Assembly (NCBI GenBank): GCA_947463125.1
Contig: CANHQZ010000010.1
Coordinates: forward strand, 1-57,759
Length of the DNA: 57,759 bases
Reading direction: 5' to 3'
From: Flavobacteriales bacterium
Lineage (GTDB): Bacteria; Bacteroidota; Bacteroidia; NS11-12g; UBA955
The first letter of the stretch is position 1. Every line of letters begins with the position of its first letter. Positions 42,971-49,433 of the stretch are shown piece by piece. Made by a program: the position numbers and the translations under genes. The notes beneath the pieces were generated by a model. It had not been told where the DNA came from, did not search any database, and saw only the letters and a list, made by a program, of their open reading frames with translations.

Positions 42971-45577
42971 TTATTTCGACGCTGTTTTGACCAAATTTTC
43001 GGCAATAGAAAACCAATCGGGTTTCTCCTCTTCTAAATAGGCTTCCATTTGGGGCTTAATGTTATTAGCGGCAATCTTTAGCAGTGTGCGGTTTTCAGGT
43101 TTTAACAGTTCTGTTTCGATAAAACGCATTTTTATCAAATTAGTTTCTCCATTAGTTTCTCCGATATCGCGTGATTCAGATTGAATTTGGTTGTTGAGCC
43201 AAAACGAGAAAACAAGGGAGAATGCATTTAGGCCGGCTTTGGGGTTTTTGTGAATTTCAATCATAGACTTCAGGGATTCCAGACCGGTATCCTGCAAAAT
43301 CCAGTTTTTCAACCACTCTGTGGCAATGGTTTTGGACGCATATTTTACGGCTTTGCGGGCGGTGTCTGCATAGCGGGGCTCCCATTCGATGTAATTAAGA
43401 ACATGGTTAGCTACAGCGGCGCTGGGATCGGATGTGAGGCGTGGTAAAATAATAGCACCCAGTTGCGGATACTGGGAACGAATGGCCCAAAGGGCTTTTA
43501 CCCTTATGTCTGAATCAAAATCGCCCAAAGCAATGCGCTGCAGGTGTTTTTTAATGGCAGTGCTGTCCTTGAATTTACGGTATGTGCAGTTATCCAGGGC
43601 GGTACTTAGCAGGGGGCTCCAGTTTGATTGCAGCGAGGCAATGATGATGCTGTCCGCTGTTGCTTCCATTTCGGAATCGGATTCGGGGAAAAGTTCGGCA
43701 GCGCGGTTGAGAACAACCATTTGTAATGCAGGATTTTTAAGTGTTTGTATGGCTTTCTGTAAAGCCAACAAGGGATATGCAGCCTGGCCGTCGTTTGGGT
43801 AATTTATTTTACAGAGCAGCTGATTATCGGGGTCTAATATCCAGAACTTGGGTTCTTCTTTTACAGGAAAAGTGAAGGTTTGGTAGCGTTGGCGAATTTC
43901 TATGGGGAACACCGCTTCCGTTTTTTGTGTTTGTAACAGCATTTTGGTTTTCAAACCATAGGTGTTTCTGTGATATTGAACCTGGTCGATATCAAAACGA
44001 ACGGTTCCGGCGGTAGAATCCCAGGTTGCTGTAACATTGAGTTCCGGAGTGTTGCCGGTAAAGTACCACTGGTTGAAAAAGGGATGCAGGTCCCGCCCGG
44101 TAACGGCTTCCATGGCCAGTCTCAGGTGGTCGACTTCTGCGGCGCGGAAACGATTGTCCGTGAGATATTTTTTTATGCCTTCCCTGAAGGCGGCATCACC
44201 AATTTCATGGCGAAGCATGTGCAGGATAAGGGCGCCTTTCTGGTAGCTGACTATATCAAAAACATCATCGGCCCGGTGAAAATCATAGCGCACCAGTTTC
44301 TTGTCTGCACCGTTCATCATGCCATTCAGGCGGGTATATAACCTGAATTCTTCCAGCAGCTCATCGGCATTGGCTTTGCCGTATTTGTACTCGCGCCAAA
44401 GGTATTCACCGTAGGTAGCAAAACTTTCATTGAGGGTGATGTTGCTCCAGCTTTCGGCAGTTACTAAATCTCCGAACCAGTGGTGAAACAATTCATGGCT
44501 AACATAATCTTCATAGGTTTCATCACGGAATTCTTCTTCTGTGGTTTGCAGATTCTCCATGTGGACAGTGGCACTGGTATTTTCCATGGCTCCGCTCACA
44601 AAATCGCGCACCACCACCTGGCTGTATTTGTCCCAGGGATAGTCTATTCCAGTGTATTTGCTGAAAAACTCCATCATTTCGGGTGTGTTTCCGAATATAT
44701 TTTTAGCACGGGATGTATAGGGTTTTTCAACGAGGTAAGAAACGGGTTTGTCGCGCCATTTGTCCTGGATTTCTGCCCAGTCACCAATGGCCATCATAGC
44801 AAGATAGGGTGCGTGGGGCAGTTTTTGCTCCCAGCAATCGGTGCGCGTGCCATTGTTGTTTTTTACGGATGAAATTTTCAGGCCGTTGCTCAGGCTTACC
44901 ATGCTGTCAGGGATGGTCATGCAGATGCGCTGGGTCATTTTCTGGTTGGGCGCATCGATGGTGGGAAACCATCGGCTGCTGCTTTCGGTTTCGCCCTGTG
45001 TCCATATTTGTCGGGGCTTTAGCGGATCGGAGCCATCAGGATTGATGAAATACAGGCCACGGTCCCCGGTGATGGCAGAACCACTTTCAGATTCAGTTCC
45101 ATATGGCTTTGCGGTATATTTAATTTTAAGGGTTGCCAAAGGGTTGGCAGTGGTAAATACTACTCCCGGTATTATTACTAGGTGAAGGCTGTCTGCATAG
45201 GAAAATGCAGCTGTTTTCCATACATCATTCTGCTTTATCTGCACGGAATGAACATCCATGTGCTTGGCGTCGAGCAGGATACTGTCGGTTTCATAGAAGT
45301 GCAGTTTCAGGGTGATTTCGGCTTCACCCAAAAGCTGTTTTTTGCCAAAATCAAAGCTTACATACAGGTTGGTATGTTGCAGTTCCCAGTCGCTGTAGCG
45401 GGCAGATCGGTAATCGGATAGCAGAATTTCGTTTTCGCCGGTCCAAATGGCTTCGCCTATGGCTGCCGCACTGTCATAAGCCACACTGTCAGTCAATGAT
45501 TCGAAGCTGTATTTGCGATACGTGCTGCAAGCGGATAAGATTGCTGATACGCTGAGTATGAAAGCAAGTTTTTTCAT
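42971..45577 (-). CDS. M1-family metallopeptidase lipoprotein
   Basis: An 868-residue zinc aminopeptidase. The signal peptide ends LSAC with Cys17, so it is membrane-anchored on the periplasmic side or outside. The substrate-recognition motif is GAMEN (329-333) and the zinc site HELFHHW with H361, H365 and E384 (NESFATYG), spacing as in M1 enzymes. The last 300 residues form a HEAT-like helical domain. It probably trims peptides from protein breakdown. It follows aroE with a 4-nt overlap, likely sharing its transcript. Confidence 0.94.
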   Translation of the reverse strand: MKKLAFILSVSAILSACSTYRKYSFESLTDSVAYDSAAAIGEAIWTGENEILLSDYRSARYSDWELQHTNLYVSFDFGKKQLLGEAEITLKLHFYETDSILLDAKHMDVHSVQIKQNDVWKTAAFSYADSLHLVIIPGVVFTTANPLATLKIKYTAKPYGTESESGSAITGDRGLYFINPDGSDPLKPRQIWTQGETESSSRWFPTIDAPNQKMTQRICMTIPDSMVSLSNGLKISSVKNNNGTRTDCWEQKLPHAPYLAMMAIGDWAEIQDKWRDKPVSYLVEKPYTSRAKNIFGNTPEMMEFFSKYTGIDYPWDKYSQVVVRDFVSGAMENTSATVHMENLQTTEEEFRDETYEDYVSHELFHHWFGDLVTAESWSNITLNESFATYGEYLWREYKYGKANADELLEEFRLYTRLNGMMNGADKKLVRYDFHRADDVFDIVSYQKGALILHMLRHEIGDAAFREGIKKYLTDNRFRAAEVDHLRLAMEAVTGRDLHPFFNQWYFTGNTPELNVTATWDSTAGTVRFDIDQVQYHRNTYGLKTKMLLQTQKTEAVFPIEIRQRYQTFTFPVKEEPKFWILDPDNQLLCKINYPNDGQAAYPLLALQKAIQTLKNPALQMVVLNRAAELFPESDSEMEATADSIIIASLQSNWSPLLSTALDNCTYRKFKDSTAIKKHLQRIALGDFDSDIRVKALWAIRSQYPQLGAIILPRLTSDPSAAVANHVLNYIEWEPRYADTARKAVKYASKTIATEWLKNWILQDTGLESLKSMIEIHKNPKAGLNAFSLVFSFWLNNQIQSESRDIGETNGETNLIKMRFIETELLKPENRTLLKIAANNIKPQMEAYLEEEKPDWFSIAENLVKTASK

Positions 45578-46329
45578 TTTAATTTTTCTTCTCTAAAAAG
45601 TTCCCAGGCTTTTTCGGCCTGTTTTTGCAGCATTAACATCCCATTAAAAACAGTTGCTCCATGCTGTGTTGCTTTTTGCATGAAAAGCGTAAGTTCCGGG
45701 TTGTATATGAGATCAATAACCGTGTGTTTGGATGTTATATGTTCGTATGGAATGGGAGGACATTCATCTTCTACTGGGTACATTCCAATCGGGGTTGAAT
45801 TGATAATAAGTTGGTGTGATTGCATCATTTCATTGTCCAACTCAGCGTAGCTTTTTTCATCCGGACCCGGATTGCGGCTGATGACTGTGTATGGAATCTG
45901 ATATTGATTCAATACATGGCAAACGGCTTTTGAAGCACCACCGGAACCCAAGACCAGGGCTTTGTCTGATTTTACTGCACCGGCCGATAAGAGCAGTGAT
46001 TCAAATCCAAAGACATCTGTGTTGTATCCAATTAATGAATATTTACTGCCGTTGCGTCGAACACTGACGGTATTCACAGCCCCAATTTCAAGGGCTTCCG
46101 ACGAAACTTCATTTAGGAAAGGAATAACTTCTGTTTTGTAGGGGATGGTTACATTGAAGCCACGTAAATCAGTATAATTTTCAAGGATGGCAGGTAAGTC
46201 ATTAATAGTTTGCAGCGGGAAAAGCCTGTATTCCCAATCGGTGATGCCTTCCTTTTTGAAAATCTGAGAAAACAGTTCGGGAGACCTGCTATGGCCAATG
46301 GGATTGCCTATCAGGCCCAGCAAGTGCAT
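45574..46329 (-). CDS. aroE: Shikimate dehydrogenase
   Basis: AroE reduces 3-dehydroshikimate with NADPH in aromatic amino-acid synthesis. The 251-residue product shows LGLIGNPIGHSRSPELF, the catalytic lysine K65 in NVTIPYKTEVIP, D105 in GYNTDVFGFE, and the dinucleotide loop GSGGASKAV (128-136). It lies 1 nt behind the DedA gene and overlaps the peptidase gene. Confidence 0.95.
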   Translation of the reverse strand: MHLLGLIGNPIGHSRSPELFSQIFKKEGITDWEYRLFPLQTINDLPAILENYTDLRGFNVTIPYKTEVIPFLNEVSSEALEIGAVNTVSVRRNGSKYSLIGYNTDVFGFESLLLSAGAVKSDKALVLGSGGASKAVCHVLNQYQIPYTVISRNPGPDEKSYAELDNEMMQSHQLIINSTPIGMYPVEDECPPIPYEHITSKHTVIDLIYNPELTLFMQKATQHGATVFNGMLMLQKQAEKAWELFREEKLK

Positions 46330-46330
46330 G

Positions 46331-46984
46331 TTACTTTTTGGAAAATTTTGATTTCAGGAATTGAAAAATCATGGGGCAGACGGAGATGAAAATGATACCC
46401 AAAACTACTTTTTCGAAGTTCTTCATCACCCATTCATTGCTGCCAAGGAGGTATCCGGCAATACTGATGCTGCACACCCAAAGAACCGCTCCGGCAATGC
46501 AATAGCCAATGAATTTGCGGTAGCCCATGGTTCCGAGTCCTGCGGCAAAAGGAGCAAATGTTCTCACAATCGGCACAAAGCGCGCCATGATGAGGGTTTT
46601 GCCACCGTGTTTTTCGTAGAAAGCGTGGGTTTGATCCAGGTATTCCCGTTTCAGTAATTTCCATTTAAGGTCGAAAATGCGCACCCCAATTCGGCTTCCG
46701 ATGTAATAGTTGGTATTGTCACCCAGCAGTGCAGCAGCAATGAGCAATGGAATCAGTATGAATATGCTGAATTCGTTGGCGGGATTGGCAGCGAGTGCAC
46801 CGGCGGCAAACAGCAGGGAATCACCGGGCAACAGCGGCATTACCACCAGGCCGGTTTCTACAAAAACGATGAGAAACAAAATGGCGTAAAGCCAGTTGCC
46901 ATATTCGCGAATCCAATCATTCAGGTAGTCGTTGAGGTGTGTGATAAAATGCAAACCGTCGGAGAAAATATTCAAAATAGTCAT
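46331..46984 (-). CDS. DedA-family membrane protein
   Basis: A 217-residue polytopic membrane protein of the DedA/Tvp38-like (SNARE-associated) family. Conserved segments: FVETGLVVMPLLPGDSLLFA, GDNTNYYIGSRIG, and FARF-type MARFVPIVRTFAPFAAG. Members act in envelope homeostasis and flipping of undecaprenyl phosphate or phosphatidylethanolamine, with roles differing between paralogues. First gene of the DedA-aroE-peptidase run. Confidence 0.93.
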   Translation of the reverse strand: MTILNIFSDGLHFITHLNDYLNDWIREYGNWLYAILFLIVFVETGLVVMPLLPGDSLLFAAGALAANPANEFSIFILIPLLIAAALLGDNTNYYIGSRIGVRIFDLKWKLLKREYLDQTHAFYEKHGGKTLIMARFVPIVRTFAPFAAGLGTMGYRKFIGYCIAGAVLWVCSISIAGYLLGSNEWVMKNFEKVVLGIIFISVCPMIFQFLKSKFSKK

Positions 46985-47032: not shown

Positions 47033-47040
47033 TATTTTTG
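47033..47040 (+). promoter_or_regulatory. TAnnTTTG -7 box before the small lipoprotein gene
   Basis: TATTTTTG lies 4 nt before the ATG at 47045. Confidence 0.55.
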
Positions 47041-47044
47041 AATA

Positions 47045-47167
47045 ATGAAATTCAGACTTTTGACATGGGTGTTTCTTCTGATGGTCGCATTTTCTGCCTG
47101 TAAAGCCATTCAGCAAAAGCAACCCAAAAAAGCCAGGGCCAAATCGGGCTGTAATTGTGGTTTTTGA
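47045..47167 (+). CDS. 40-residue lipoprotein with Cys-rich tail
   Basis: A short gene with a full lipoprotein signal: MKFRLLTWVFLLMVAFSAC, lipobox FSA-C19. The mature peptide is only 22 residues, basic (KAIQQKQPKKARAK), ending SGCNCGF with two further cysteines. A promoter box 4 nt upstream and a clean signal peptide argue that it is real. I do not recognise a named family; tiny lipoproteins with a C-x-C tail are seen in Bacteroidota. The tail could bind metal or form disulfides. The HTH-Uma2 gene starts 51 nt downstream with its own promoter. Confidence 0.68.
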   Translation: MKFRLLTWVFLLMVAFSACKAIQQKQPKKARAKSGCNCGF

Positions 47168-47182
47168 AAAATTTGTATATTA

Positions 47183-47214
47183 TTTGTAAATTCTTTGTTA
47201 TTTGTGTAATTTTG
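47183..47214 (+). promoter_or_regulatory. TTTG-N20-TAnnTTTG promoter of the HTH-Uma2 gene
   Basis: TTTG at 47183-47186 and TAATTTTG at 47207-47214, exact in both elements, embedded in an AT-rich stretch with further TTTG triplet-like repeats. It lies 4 nt before the GTG at 47219. Confidence 0.68.
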
Positions 47215-47218
47215 GGGT

Positions 47219-48049
47219 GTGGTAAAGCGAAAATATCCGGAGCTGGAAGCGGGCATGTTTCATGGGTTGCACAAGGCAGTTCAGGAGCGGACCGGCATTT
47301 CATTGCCTGTCATTCATCAGGCATTGACCGAGCAGGATGATCGCTCTGCAAAAAAGTTGCTTGCGATTCGCACTGCATTGGAAATTATTCGCGAGCGTTC
47401 GGATTTAAATGATAAGGAATATGTAGATTCTGATTCGGACTTGTTGACAGTTGGTGAGCCGGTTGCAGAGTATGCCATGTTGGATCTTGACCGTCTTTAC
47501 ACCTACTGGGATTATCTGAAATGGTCATTTTTGGACCGTGTAGAATTGATTAAGGGTAAGGTGGTGAAGATGTGTCCGGCGCCCAGCCGCAATCATCAGC
47601 TGGTAGTTCGTGTTGTTAACCGCTATTTTGATCAGTTTTTTTTGCATAAGTCCTGTGGGTTGTTCTATGCACCTTTTGATGTCAGGCTTCCTGTTCCCGG
47701 TGCGAAAAAAGACAGTACTGTGGTTCAGCCCGATTTGACTGTCATTTGTGATTTAAGCAAGGTGGATGAGCGCGGTTGTTTTGGTGTGCCTGATATACTG
47801 GTAGAAATTGTTTCGCCGGGTAATTCCCGTCATGATATGAATGTTAAATTCAAGCTGTATGAAGCCTGTGGGGTTAAGGAATACTGGATAATTCAGCCGC
47901 AGGAACGCAGTGTTTTGATTTATGTTCTGGAGAATAAAAAATATATTGGATTGGCTCCTTTCACAGAAGGCACCGATGCGGCAGGGCTGTTATTTCCTGA
48001 TCTTAGGCTGCCTGTAGATACAGTGTTTGCCTATCTCCCAAAAGAATAG
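47219..48049 (+). CDS. Uma2-family nuclease with N-terminal HTH-like region
   Basis: A 276-residue protein in two parts. Residues about 15-62 look like a helix-turn-helix: VQERTGISLPVIHQAL, then KKLLAIRTALEIIRER, resembling small LacI-type HTH segments of Bacteroidota. Residues about 85-276 are an Uma2 (DUF820) PD-(D/E)xK nuclease domain: VVQPDLTVICD (D172), ILVEIVSPGNSRHDMN (E196) and KLYEACGVKEYWII. The GTG start fits the promoter; ATG at 47255 would trim 12 residues but keep the HTH. Uma2 proteins are abundant, often horizontally spread, and of unproven role. The fusion is inferred from sequence pattern. Confidence 0.78.
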   Translation: MVKRKYPELEAGMFHGLHKAVQERTGISLPVIHQALTEQDDRSAKKLLAIRTALEIIRERSDLNDKEYVDSDSDLLTVGEPVAEYAMLDLDRLYTYWDYLKWSFLDRVELIKGKVVKMCPAPSRNHQLVVRVVNRYFDQFFLHKSCGLFYAPFDVRLPVPGAKKDSTVVQPDLTVICDLSKVDERGCFGVPDILVEIVSPGNSRHDMNVKFKLYEACGVKEYWIIQPQERSVLIYVLENKKYIGLAPFTEGTDAAGLLFPDLRLPVDTVFAYLPKE

Positions 48050-48116: not shown

Positions 48117-49433
48117 ATGACAACAGAAACCACATCCTATCTTCCTTACAAAGTAAAAGATATTACCCTGGCCGAATGGGGCCGCAAGGAAATCCGCATG
48201 GCGGAAGCCGAAATGCCCGGTTTGATGGCAATCCGTGAAGAATACCGTGGCAGTCAGCCCCTCAAGGGTGCGCGTGTTGCAGGCTGTCTTCACATGACTA
48301 TTCAGACTGCCGTTTTAATAGAAACCCTGAAAGAACTGGGTGCCGAAGTTACCTGGAGTTCCTGCAACATTTTCTCAACCCAGGACCATGCCGCCGCTGC
48401 CATCGCTGCTGCGGGTATTCCTGTGTATGCCTGGAAAGGCATGACAGAGGAAGAATACGAGTGGTGCATTGAGCAAACCCTTTATTTCGGTCCTGACCGT
48501 CAGCCGCTGAACATGATTCTCGATGATGGAGGTGATCTCACCAATGTGGTTTTGGATAAATACCCTCACCTGGCTGCCGGTATCAAAGGCATCAGCGAAG
48601 AAACAACCACCGGTGTTCACCGCCTGTATGAGCGCGTGACCAAAGGAACGCTGCCCATGCCTGCTATCAATGTAAATGACAGCGTAACCAAGAGCAAGTT
48701 TGACAACAAATACGGTTGCAAAGAATCGCTGGTGGATGCCATCCGTCGTGCTACCGACGTTATGCTCGCCGGCAAAGTGGCTGTGGTTTGCGGATACGGC
48801 GACGTAGGAAAAGGAAGTGCCGACAGCCTTCGTGGTGCCGGTGCCCGCGTAATCGTGACTGAAGTTGACCCAATTTGTGCCCTTCAGGCCGCTATGGATG
48901 GTTATGAAGTTCGTACGCTTGAGAATGCCATTCCCCGTGTCAATATCGTGGTTACTGCCACCGGTAACTGCCAGATTGTGACGGACAGGCATTTCAAAAT
49001 GATGAACGACAAAACCATCGTTTGCAACATTGGCCACTTCGACAATGAAATTGATATTGCCTGGTTGAACAGCAACTACGGCAGCACCAAATACACTATT
49101 AAACCTCAGGTTGATGTTTACAACATTGACGGCAGGGAAGTAGTGGTGCTGGCAGAAGGCCGTCTGGTAAACCTGGGTTGCGCCATGGGTCACCCCAGCT
49201 TTGTAATGAGTAACAGCTTTACCAACCAGACGCTGGCTCAAATTGAGTTGTGGAAAAACCACAGTAACTACGACAACAAAGTGTATGTGTTGCCCAAGCA
49301 TCTGGATGAGAAGGTAGCGCGTTTGCACCTTGCCCACATTGGAGCTGAGCTTACCGAGCTCACCCATGAGCAGGCCGATTACATCGGTGTATCTGTTCAG
49401 GGTCCGTTCAAAAAGGATCAGTACCGTTATTAA
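48117..49433 (+). CDS. ahcY: Adenosylhomocysteinase
   Basis: AhcY hydrolyses S-adenosylhomocysteine to adenosine and homocysteine, relieving inhibition of methyltransferases. The 438-residue product has [15 protein letters not shown] (catalytic Asp and His), [16 protein letters not shown] loop [12 protein letters not shown] (226-233), and the conserved end KKDQYRY. Codon usage is biased as in a highly expressed gene. A terminator follows. Confidence 0.97.

Follow-up and report, generated by a model that had tools for sequence, protein, structure and literature searches.

A tiny lipoprotein with a fixed cysteine and phenylalanine tail, encoded beside dedA in one family of Bacteroidia

The question raised by this locus is whether an open reading frame of only 40 codons, set between a dedA gene and a Uma2-domain gene, is a gene at all and, if it is, what its product could do there. 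The frame lies in a 57,759-nucleotide stretch of DNA from a Flavobacteriales bacterium (contig CANHQZ010000010.1), referred to here as the window. We compared the frame, its predicted product and its neighbours with those of related genomes (Table 1).

A short gene under protein-level selection

The frame runs from ATG to TGA and translates as MKFRLLTWVFLLMVAFSACKAIQQKQPKKARAKSGCNCGF, a precursor with a basic n-region, a hydrophobic core and the lipobox FSA-C19, followed by a Lys/Arg-rich, nearly acid-free linker. The translation agrees with the initial annotation of this DNA, which had described a 40-residue lipoprotein with a basic mature part of 22 residues ending SGCNCGF and with three cysteines in that part, counting the one at the acylation site; the sequence supports a small envelope lipoprotein well. 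Judged by rule and by eye, a lipoprotein signal is present, and its Cys is unchanged in all 21 sequences aligned. The basic n-region, the hydrophobic core and this Cys are those of type II signal peptide lipoproteins in general, from which the family departs in its very short mature part (17–25 residues), its fixed C-x-C...Phe end and the lack of a Pfam or NCBIfam model: the window protein matched none of these families at E values up to 1. Entericidin-type small lipoproteins have a similar precursor size and a lipid anchor; the window lipoprotein differs from them in its tail and genomic setting, and in having no Pfam match at that threshold.

A 40-codon frame with the same neighbours occurs in six other species of the window's genus; in one of them it is preceded by an additional Met codon. 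For the seven sequences, compared in 21 pairs, pN/pS was 0.34 for codons 2–40, 0.60 for the signal peptide, 0.17 for the mature part and 0.00 for the last 8 codons, where 82 synonymous and no nonsynonymous differences were counted; the strand's two other frames gave 1.33 and 1.60. By these sequence comparisons, the mature parts are under strong purifying selection within the genus. In the 21-sequence alignment, which takes in 2 sequences from a second family (f2), C19 of the lipobox, C36, C38 and F40 are invariant. Loss of the frame or of the C-x-C tail in relatives had been named beforehand as grounds for dropping the gene; the opposite was found, with both conserved. We regard it as virtually certain that this is a real gene and, from the precursor sequence, very probable that its product is a lipoprotein.

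The promoter box that had been placed 4 nt upstream is there as well: TATTTTTG ends exactly 4 nt before the ATG. We looked upstream of 53 distinct genes of the window's taxonomic family (f1) whose products end C[NDH]C[GKTSD]F. A TAnnTT[TC]G box ends 4–7 nt before the ATG in 40 of them, lies at 10–14 nt in 11 others and is absent from 2, bearing in mind that these genes, being related, are not independent. The lipoprotein mRNA is therefore probably nearly leaderless. For Flavobacterium psychrophilum, the excerpted text of one study places the box at −12 to −5 (PMC9723704), so with a spacing of 4 nt transcription would begin at the A of the ATG. According to the same excerpt, leaderless mRNAs make up 5.5% of those examined in that species, and a nearly leaderless start across a family would therefore stand out.

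Table 1. Positions of the genes and sequence elements discussed; ranges without a prefix refer to the window, and the others carry the handle of their locus
Feature	Position	Strand	Genome	Basis or remark
aroE (shikimate dehydrogenase)	45574..46329	-		Downstream of dedA
dedA	46331..46984	-		Divergent neighbour; VTT domain; NCBIfam PRK10847 model over cut-off
Promoter box TATTTTTG	47033..47040	+		TAnnTTTG-type −7 box, 4 nt before ATG
Tiny lipoprotein gene, 40 aa	47045..47167	+		Conserved frame, pN/pS, family-wide orthologs
Signal peptide, residues 1–18	47045..47098	+		Lipobox end FSA-C; sequence; Cys invariant in 21/21 aligned
Mature part, residues 19–40	47099..47164	+		Cys anchor, basic linker, CNCGF tail
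Uma2-domain gene (PF05685)	47219..48049	+		Patchy neighbour; TAATTTTG box 4 nt before GTG
ahcY (S-adenosylhomocysteine hydrolase)	48117..49433	+		Downstream in 20/37 f1 neighbourhoods
DUF368/PopT gene	L100:6729-7673		G008	Beside aroE, in DedA's place
g13 tandem paralogs	L192:1486-1605, L203:1483-1602, L205:122-241, L207:1604-1726			
g13 tandem paralogs	L094:8142-8261, L098:7675-7797, L123:7839-7976, L124:8205-8324			
f2 g16 tiny lipoproteins	L293:2564-2698, L295:1548-1697, L114:7916-8062, L115:7222-7356			By M28 gene

Distribution and tail variants

The lipoprotein is present in 61 of the 70 f1 genomes, in 60 as a profile match that reaches the end of the profile and in one (G394) as a gene found by reading the DedA flank. 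A stop-anchored CNCGF pattern searched in DNA gave 55 matches in 51 of the 70 genomes, compared with 1 for the reversed control; of these matches, 48 were judged to be the lipoprotein gene and the other 7 short frames that arose by chance. The exact CNCGF end is missing from 13 of the 61 members, and the variants among those read were CNCKF, CNCTF, CNCSF, CNCDF, CDCGF and CHCGF. The net charge of 28 mature parts ranged from +2 to +7, with 4 acidic residues among 559.

Two further forms share the last residue. Several g13 genomes have a second tiny lipoprotein gene in tandem with the first, with ends such as SCASNF, SCASSF, SCANAF or GCTNF, which have one Cys and a final Phe and lack C-x-C. A longer relative with the end C[NK]CPL[KR]F was found in the sister family f2, in all five g16 genomes read (G060, G062, G066, G068 and G071). 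Its gene does not lie beside dedA; in four of these genomes it runs convergently towards an M28 peptidase gene, which its stop codon directly adjoins. The f2 and f1 forms may share descent.

With Phe terminal in the paralogs and the f2 forms too, the end is more constant than the C-x-C motif. PDZ proteases read C-terminal aromatic residues, and the Phe carboxylate could be a tag that a periplasmic protease or sensor of the PDZ type recognises, the lipoprotein serving as a tethered stress reporter in which the Cys pair shields or exposes the tag. The terminal Phe of all members, one-Cys paralogs and f2 forms included, fits this reading, for which the partner protein is hypothetical; we consider it unlikely.

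Beyond f1, a full-length profile run on 296 genomes of the phylum returned almost only generic signal-peptide matches, a profile of the mature part run on 246 genomes of the class revealed no new lipoprotein family, and an f2-type profile run on 376 genomes of the class matched strongly only in genus g16. The CNCGF-stop pattern gave 24 matches in the 246 class genomes, compared with 11 for the control; 3 were the lipoprotein, 3 were exported LRR proteins and the remainder were judged to be chance frames or not true ends. The exported LRR proteins that end CNCGF belong to families f62 and f77 (L270, L272 and L273, in frames ending near base 1515), and from sequence their end would be either a coincidence or a shared C-terminal signal. 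A narrow literature search for such a lipoprotein found nothing and was too narrow for the family to be called unpublished. The small lipoproteins described here form a family of an ordinary kind that no curated model covers; their C-terminal tail is unusually constant, and they are strongly associated with one locus.

The divergent dedA–aroE pair

We compared 41 loci, of which 37 came from f1 members, two from f2 relatives and two were unrelated matches, and the most constant neighbour of the lipoprotein gene was the divergent dedA–aroE pair. An ortholog of DedA occurs in 62 of the 70 f1 genomes and together with the lipoprotein in 59; in 53 of these 59 the two genes are divergent, with a gap of 54–464 nt (median, 95 nt). 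The initial annotation had advised looking for a conserved pairing with the DedA or Uma2 genes. Such a pairing is borne out for DedA and not for Uma2: among the 37 f1 neighbourhoods and two further loci of the genus, only members of the window's genus and G013 had the Uma2 gene.

The close divergent pair has exceptions. The genes are codirectional in G040 (236 nt apart), G032 (1,749 nt) and G055 (4,710 nt), divergent at 2,435 nt in G043, 464 kb apart in G014 and on different contigs in G049, perhaps through a contig break. The lipoprotein occurs without DedA in G008 and in G396, where the contig ends about 360 nt upstream, and DedA occurs without the lipoprotein in G012, G024 and G054 (partial in the last). 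Six f1 genomes have neither, which may reflect incomplete assemblies. In G012, a 68-codon frame ending CPKYCNCNIK (L190:1829-2035) lies on the dedA strand, some 225 nt upstream of that gene, and is possibly a diverged counterpart of the lipoprotein or a chance frame.

A constant place at one housekeeping locus across the family also bears on whether the product is a small membrane-active toxin or a bacteriocin lipoprotein. Its size and basic charge are all that suggest this; the absence of any Pfam or NCBIfam match, the family-wide conservation of the site and the lack of an obvious modification or immunity gene alongside make it improbable.

Turnover of the downstream genes

On its other side the lipoprotein gene is less constant. 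The gene that directly follows it in the window is, as had been annotated, the Uma2-domain gene; in the 37 f1 neighbourhoods the downstream gene was ahcY in 20 and another gene in 15, with no usable call in 2. Where it was another gene, divergent dedA was kept in 10 of the 15 and dedA was codirectional in one (G040).

We rejected Uma2 as a functional partner, given its patchy occurrence and its state in G004, in which the gene is split over three frames (L118:8186-8981) next to an intact lipoprotein gene; it looks decayed there, or affected by assembly errors. The Uma2 link is incidental. The Uma2 gene of the window has its own TAnnTTTG box 4 nt before its GTG start (47207-47218), which suggests that it is leaderless and has its own promoter.

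The frequency of ahcY downstream and the near-leaderless start of the lipoprotein gene raise another reading: that the frame is a leader peptide, the Cys codons near its stop sensing cysteine and attenuating ahcY. Cysteine-responsive leader peptides are encoded by small leaderless frames with Cys codons near the stop, a likeness that holds here, and cysteine attenuators of this leaderless kind occur in mycobacteria. They differ from the present case, in which selection acts on a lipoprotein signal at the protein level and the gene downstream varies. The reading is disfavoured because the lipobox and the tail are conserved as protein, also where ahcY is not downstream; an attenuator would call for a constant regulated gene, and the next gene in the window is Uma2, with a box of its own. 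An RNA-family search gave no attenuator-like match, nor was a terminator-like site detected in the interval separating the lipoprotein and Uma2 genes. On neighbour turnover, protein-level conservation and the lack of an attenuator-like RNA match, we rejected an ahcY attenuator as very improbable.

A second translocase at the same site

In G008, the protein encoded between aroE and the lipoprotein gene is not DedA; it matches PF04018, the DUF368/PopT family (324 bits), and its gene is divergent from the lipoprotein gene at a distance of 69 nt. No DedA match was found in this genome, which is 89% complete, at an E value of 1e-40. Both COG0586 DedA and DUF368 proteins are undecaprenyl-phosphate (UndP) translocases or candidates for that role, according to excerpts of the studies that describe them (PMC10127716, PMC9876793). 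At this locus there is an apparent exchange of two unrelated UndP translocase families, both of which are divergent neighbours of the lipoprotein gene and not homologs of its product. By eye, the DedA of the window has acidic residues in VETGLVVMPLLPGD and two Arg in RFVPIVR, which we take to be the pattern of COG0586.

The DUF368 substitution is a single instance, and PF04018 occurs in only 2 of the 70 f1 genomes. A scan for small lipoproteins at 32 DUF368 loci, of 102 matches in 90 genomes, gave no convincing tiny lipoprotein at the 31 loci other than that of G008, with three scan matches that were implausible; a phylum-wide pairing of DUF368 with a lipoprotein was therefore rejected, the f1 member G008 being the only one to have it. 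The seven f2-family DedA loci that were read, out of eight, also showed no convincing tiny lipoprotein. Because aroE matches were found in 23 of the 31 other DUF368 loci, a common arrangement in Bacteroidia, DedA may have displaced DUF368 at this site. The absence of the lipoprotein from the other DUF368 loci and the f2 DedA loci makes its pairing with a translocase a property of family f1, and the pairing could therefore be inherited gene order.

This leads to the main rival explanation: an envelope lipoprotein with no tie to DedA, at a locus kept by descent, with a role such as periplasmic Cu/Zn binding or thiol buffering. The limitation of the linkage to one family, the different place of the f2 relatives, the unlinked f1 members and a C-x-C motif with His/Lys-rich linkers suited to metal binding are all in keeping with it. 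It accounts less well for the retention of the dedA side when the downstream side changes and for the persistence of the lipoprotein under the DUF368 substitution. We put it at somewhat under an even chance.

Proposed function

Our main reading is that the lipoprotein is an accessory to the DedA or DUF368 protein encoded next to it, assisting in the recycling of UndP, the cell-wall lipid carrier, with a dithiol or metal-binding tail and a terminal Phe that meets an envelope partner; we give the proposal as a whole a probability of about 0.35. Its parts differ in strength. In Bacteroidota, surface export uses an acidic signal just after the Cys, for example K-(D/E)2, Q-A-(D/E)2 or SDDDD, as given in the excerpted source (PMC5080379). 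No such signal was found in the 28 mature parts with their 4 acidic residues, and a periplasm-facing location is therefore likely. The conserved C-x-C, judged from its sequence, is in keeping with thiol chemistry or metal binding, and we see the odds of either in the tail as about even; the metal-binding or effector role raised in the initial annotation is possible. Gene position is what points to a functional tie with the translocase, and we hold that tie tentatively, at slightly worse than even odds.

In this proposal, lipoprotein processing would leave the peptide held by its lipid tether on the periplasmic side of a membrane, where the basic linker could lie along anionic head groups. The exposed Cys-Asn-Cys would serve as a small site for dithiol/disulfide, or soft-metal, chemistry, and recognition by a partner protein may depend in part on the free Phe at the C terminus. 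The short intergenic region shared with the translocase gene could allow co-regulation of the two.

The accessory role is favoured by protein-level selection on a fixed tail with C19, C36, C38 and F40 invariant, by presence in 61 of 70 genomes, by divergent dedA in 53 of 59 and by DUF368 in DedA's place in G008. Against it stand the f1 members in which the lipoprotein and dedA lie apart or dedA occurs alone, the f2 relatives by an M28 peptidase gene and not dedA, and the g13 tandem paralog with a single tail Cys. A bolder form of the proposal, in which the family are lipid-tethered dithiol accessory subunits of UndP translocases whose C-x-C-x-F tail gates or senses recycling of the lipid carrier, is speculative and, in our view, rather unlikely.

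The family illustrates that curated protein libraries can lack a gene found throughout a bacterial family, the probable reason here being a product of only about 40 residues. UndP translocases have been described only recently, and the excerpts of the two studies cited here name no accessory protein for them (PMC10127716, PMC9876793). A lipoprotein that is kept by the translocase gene despite downstream turnover, once with a translocase of the other family, is a candidate partner.
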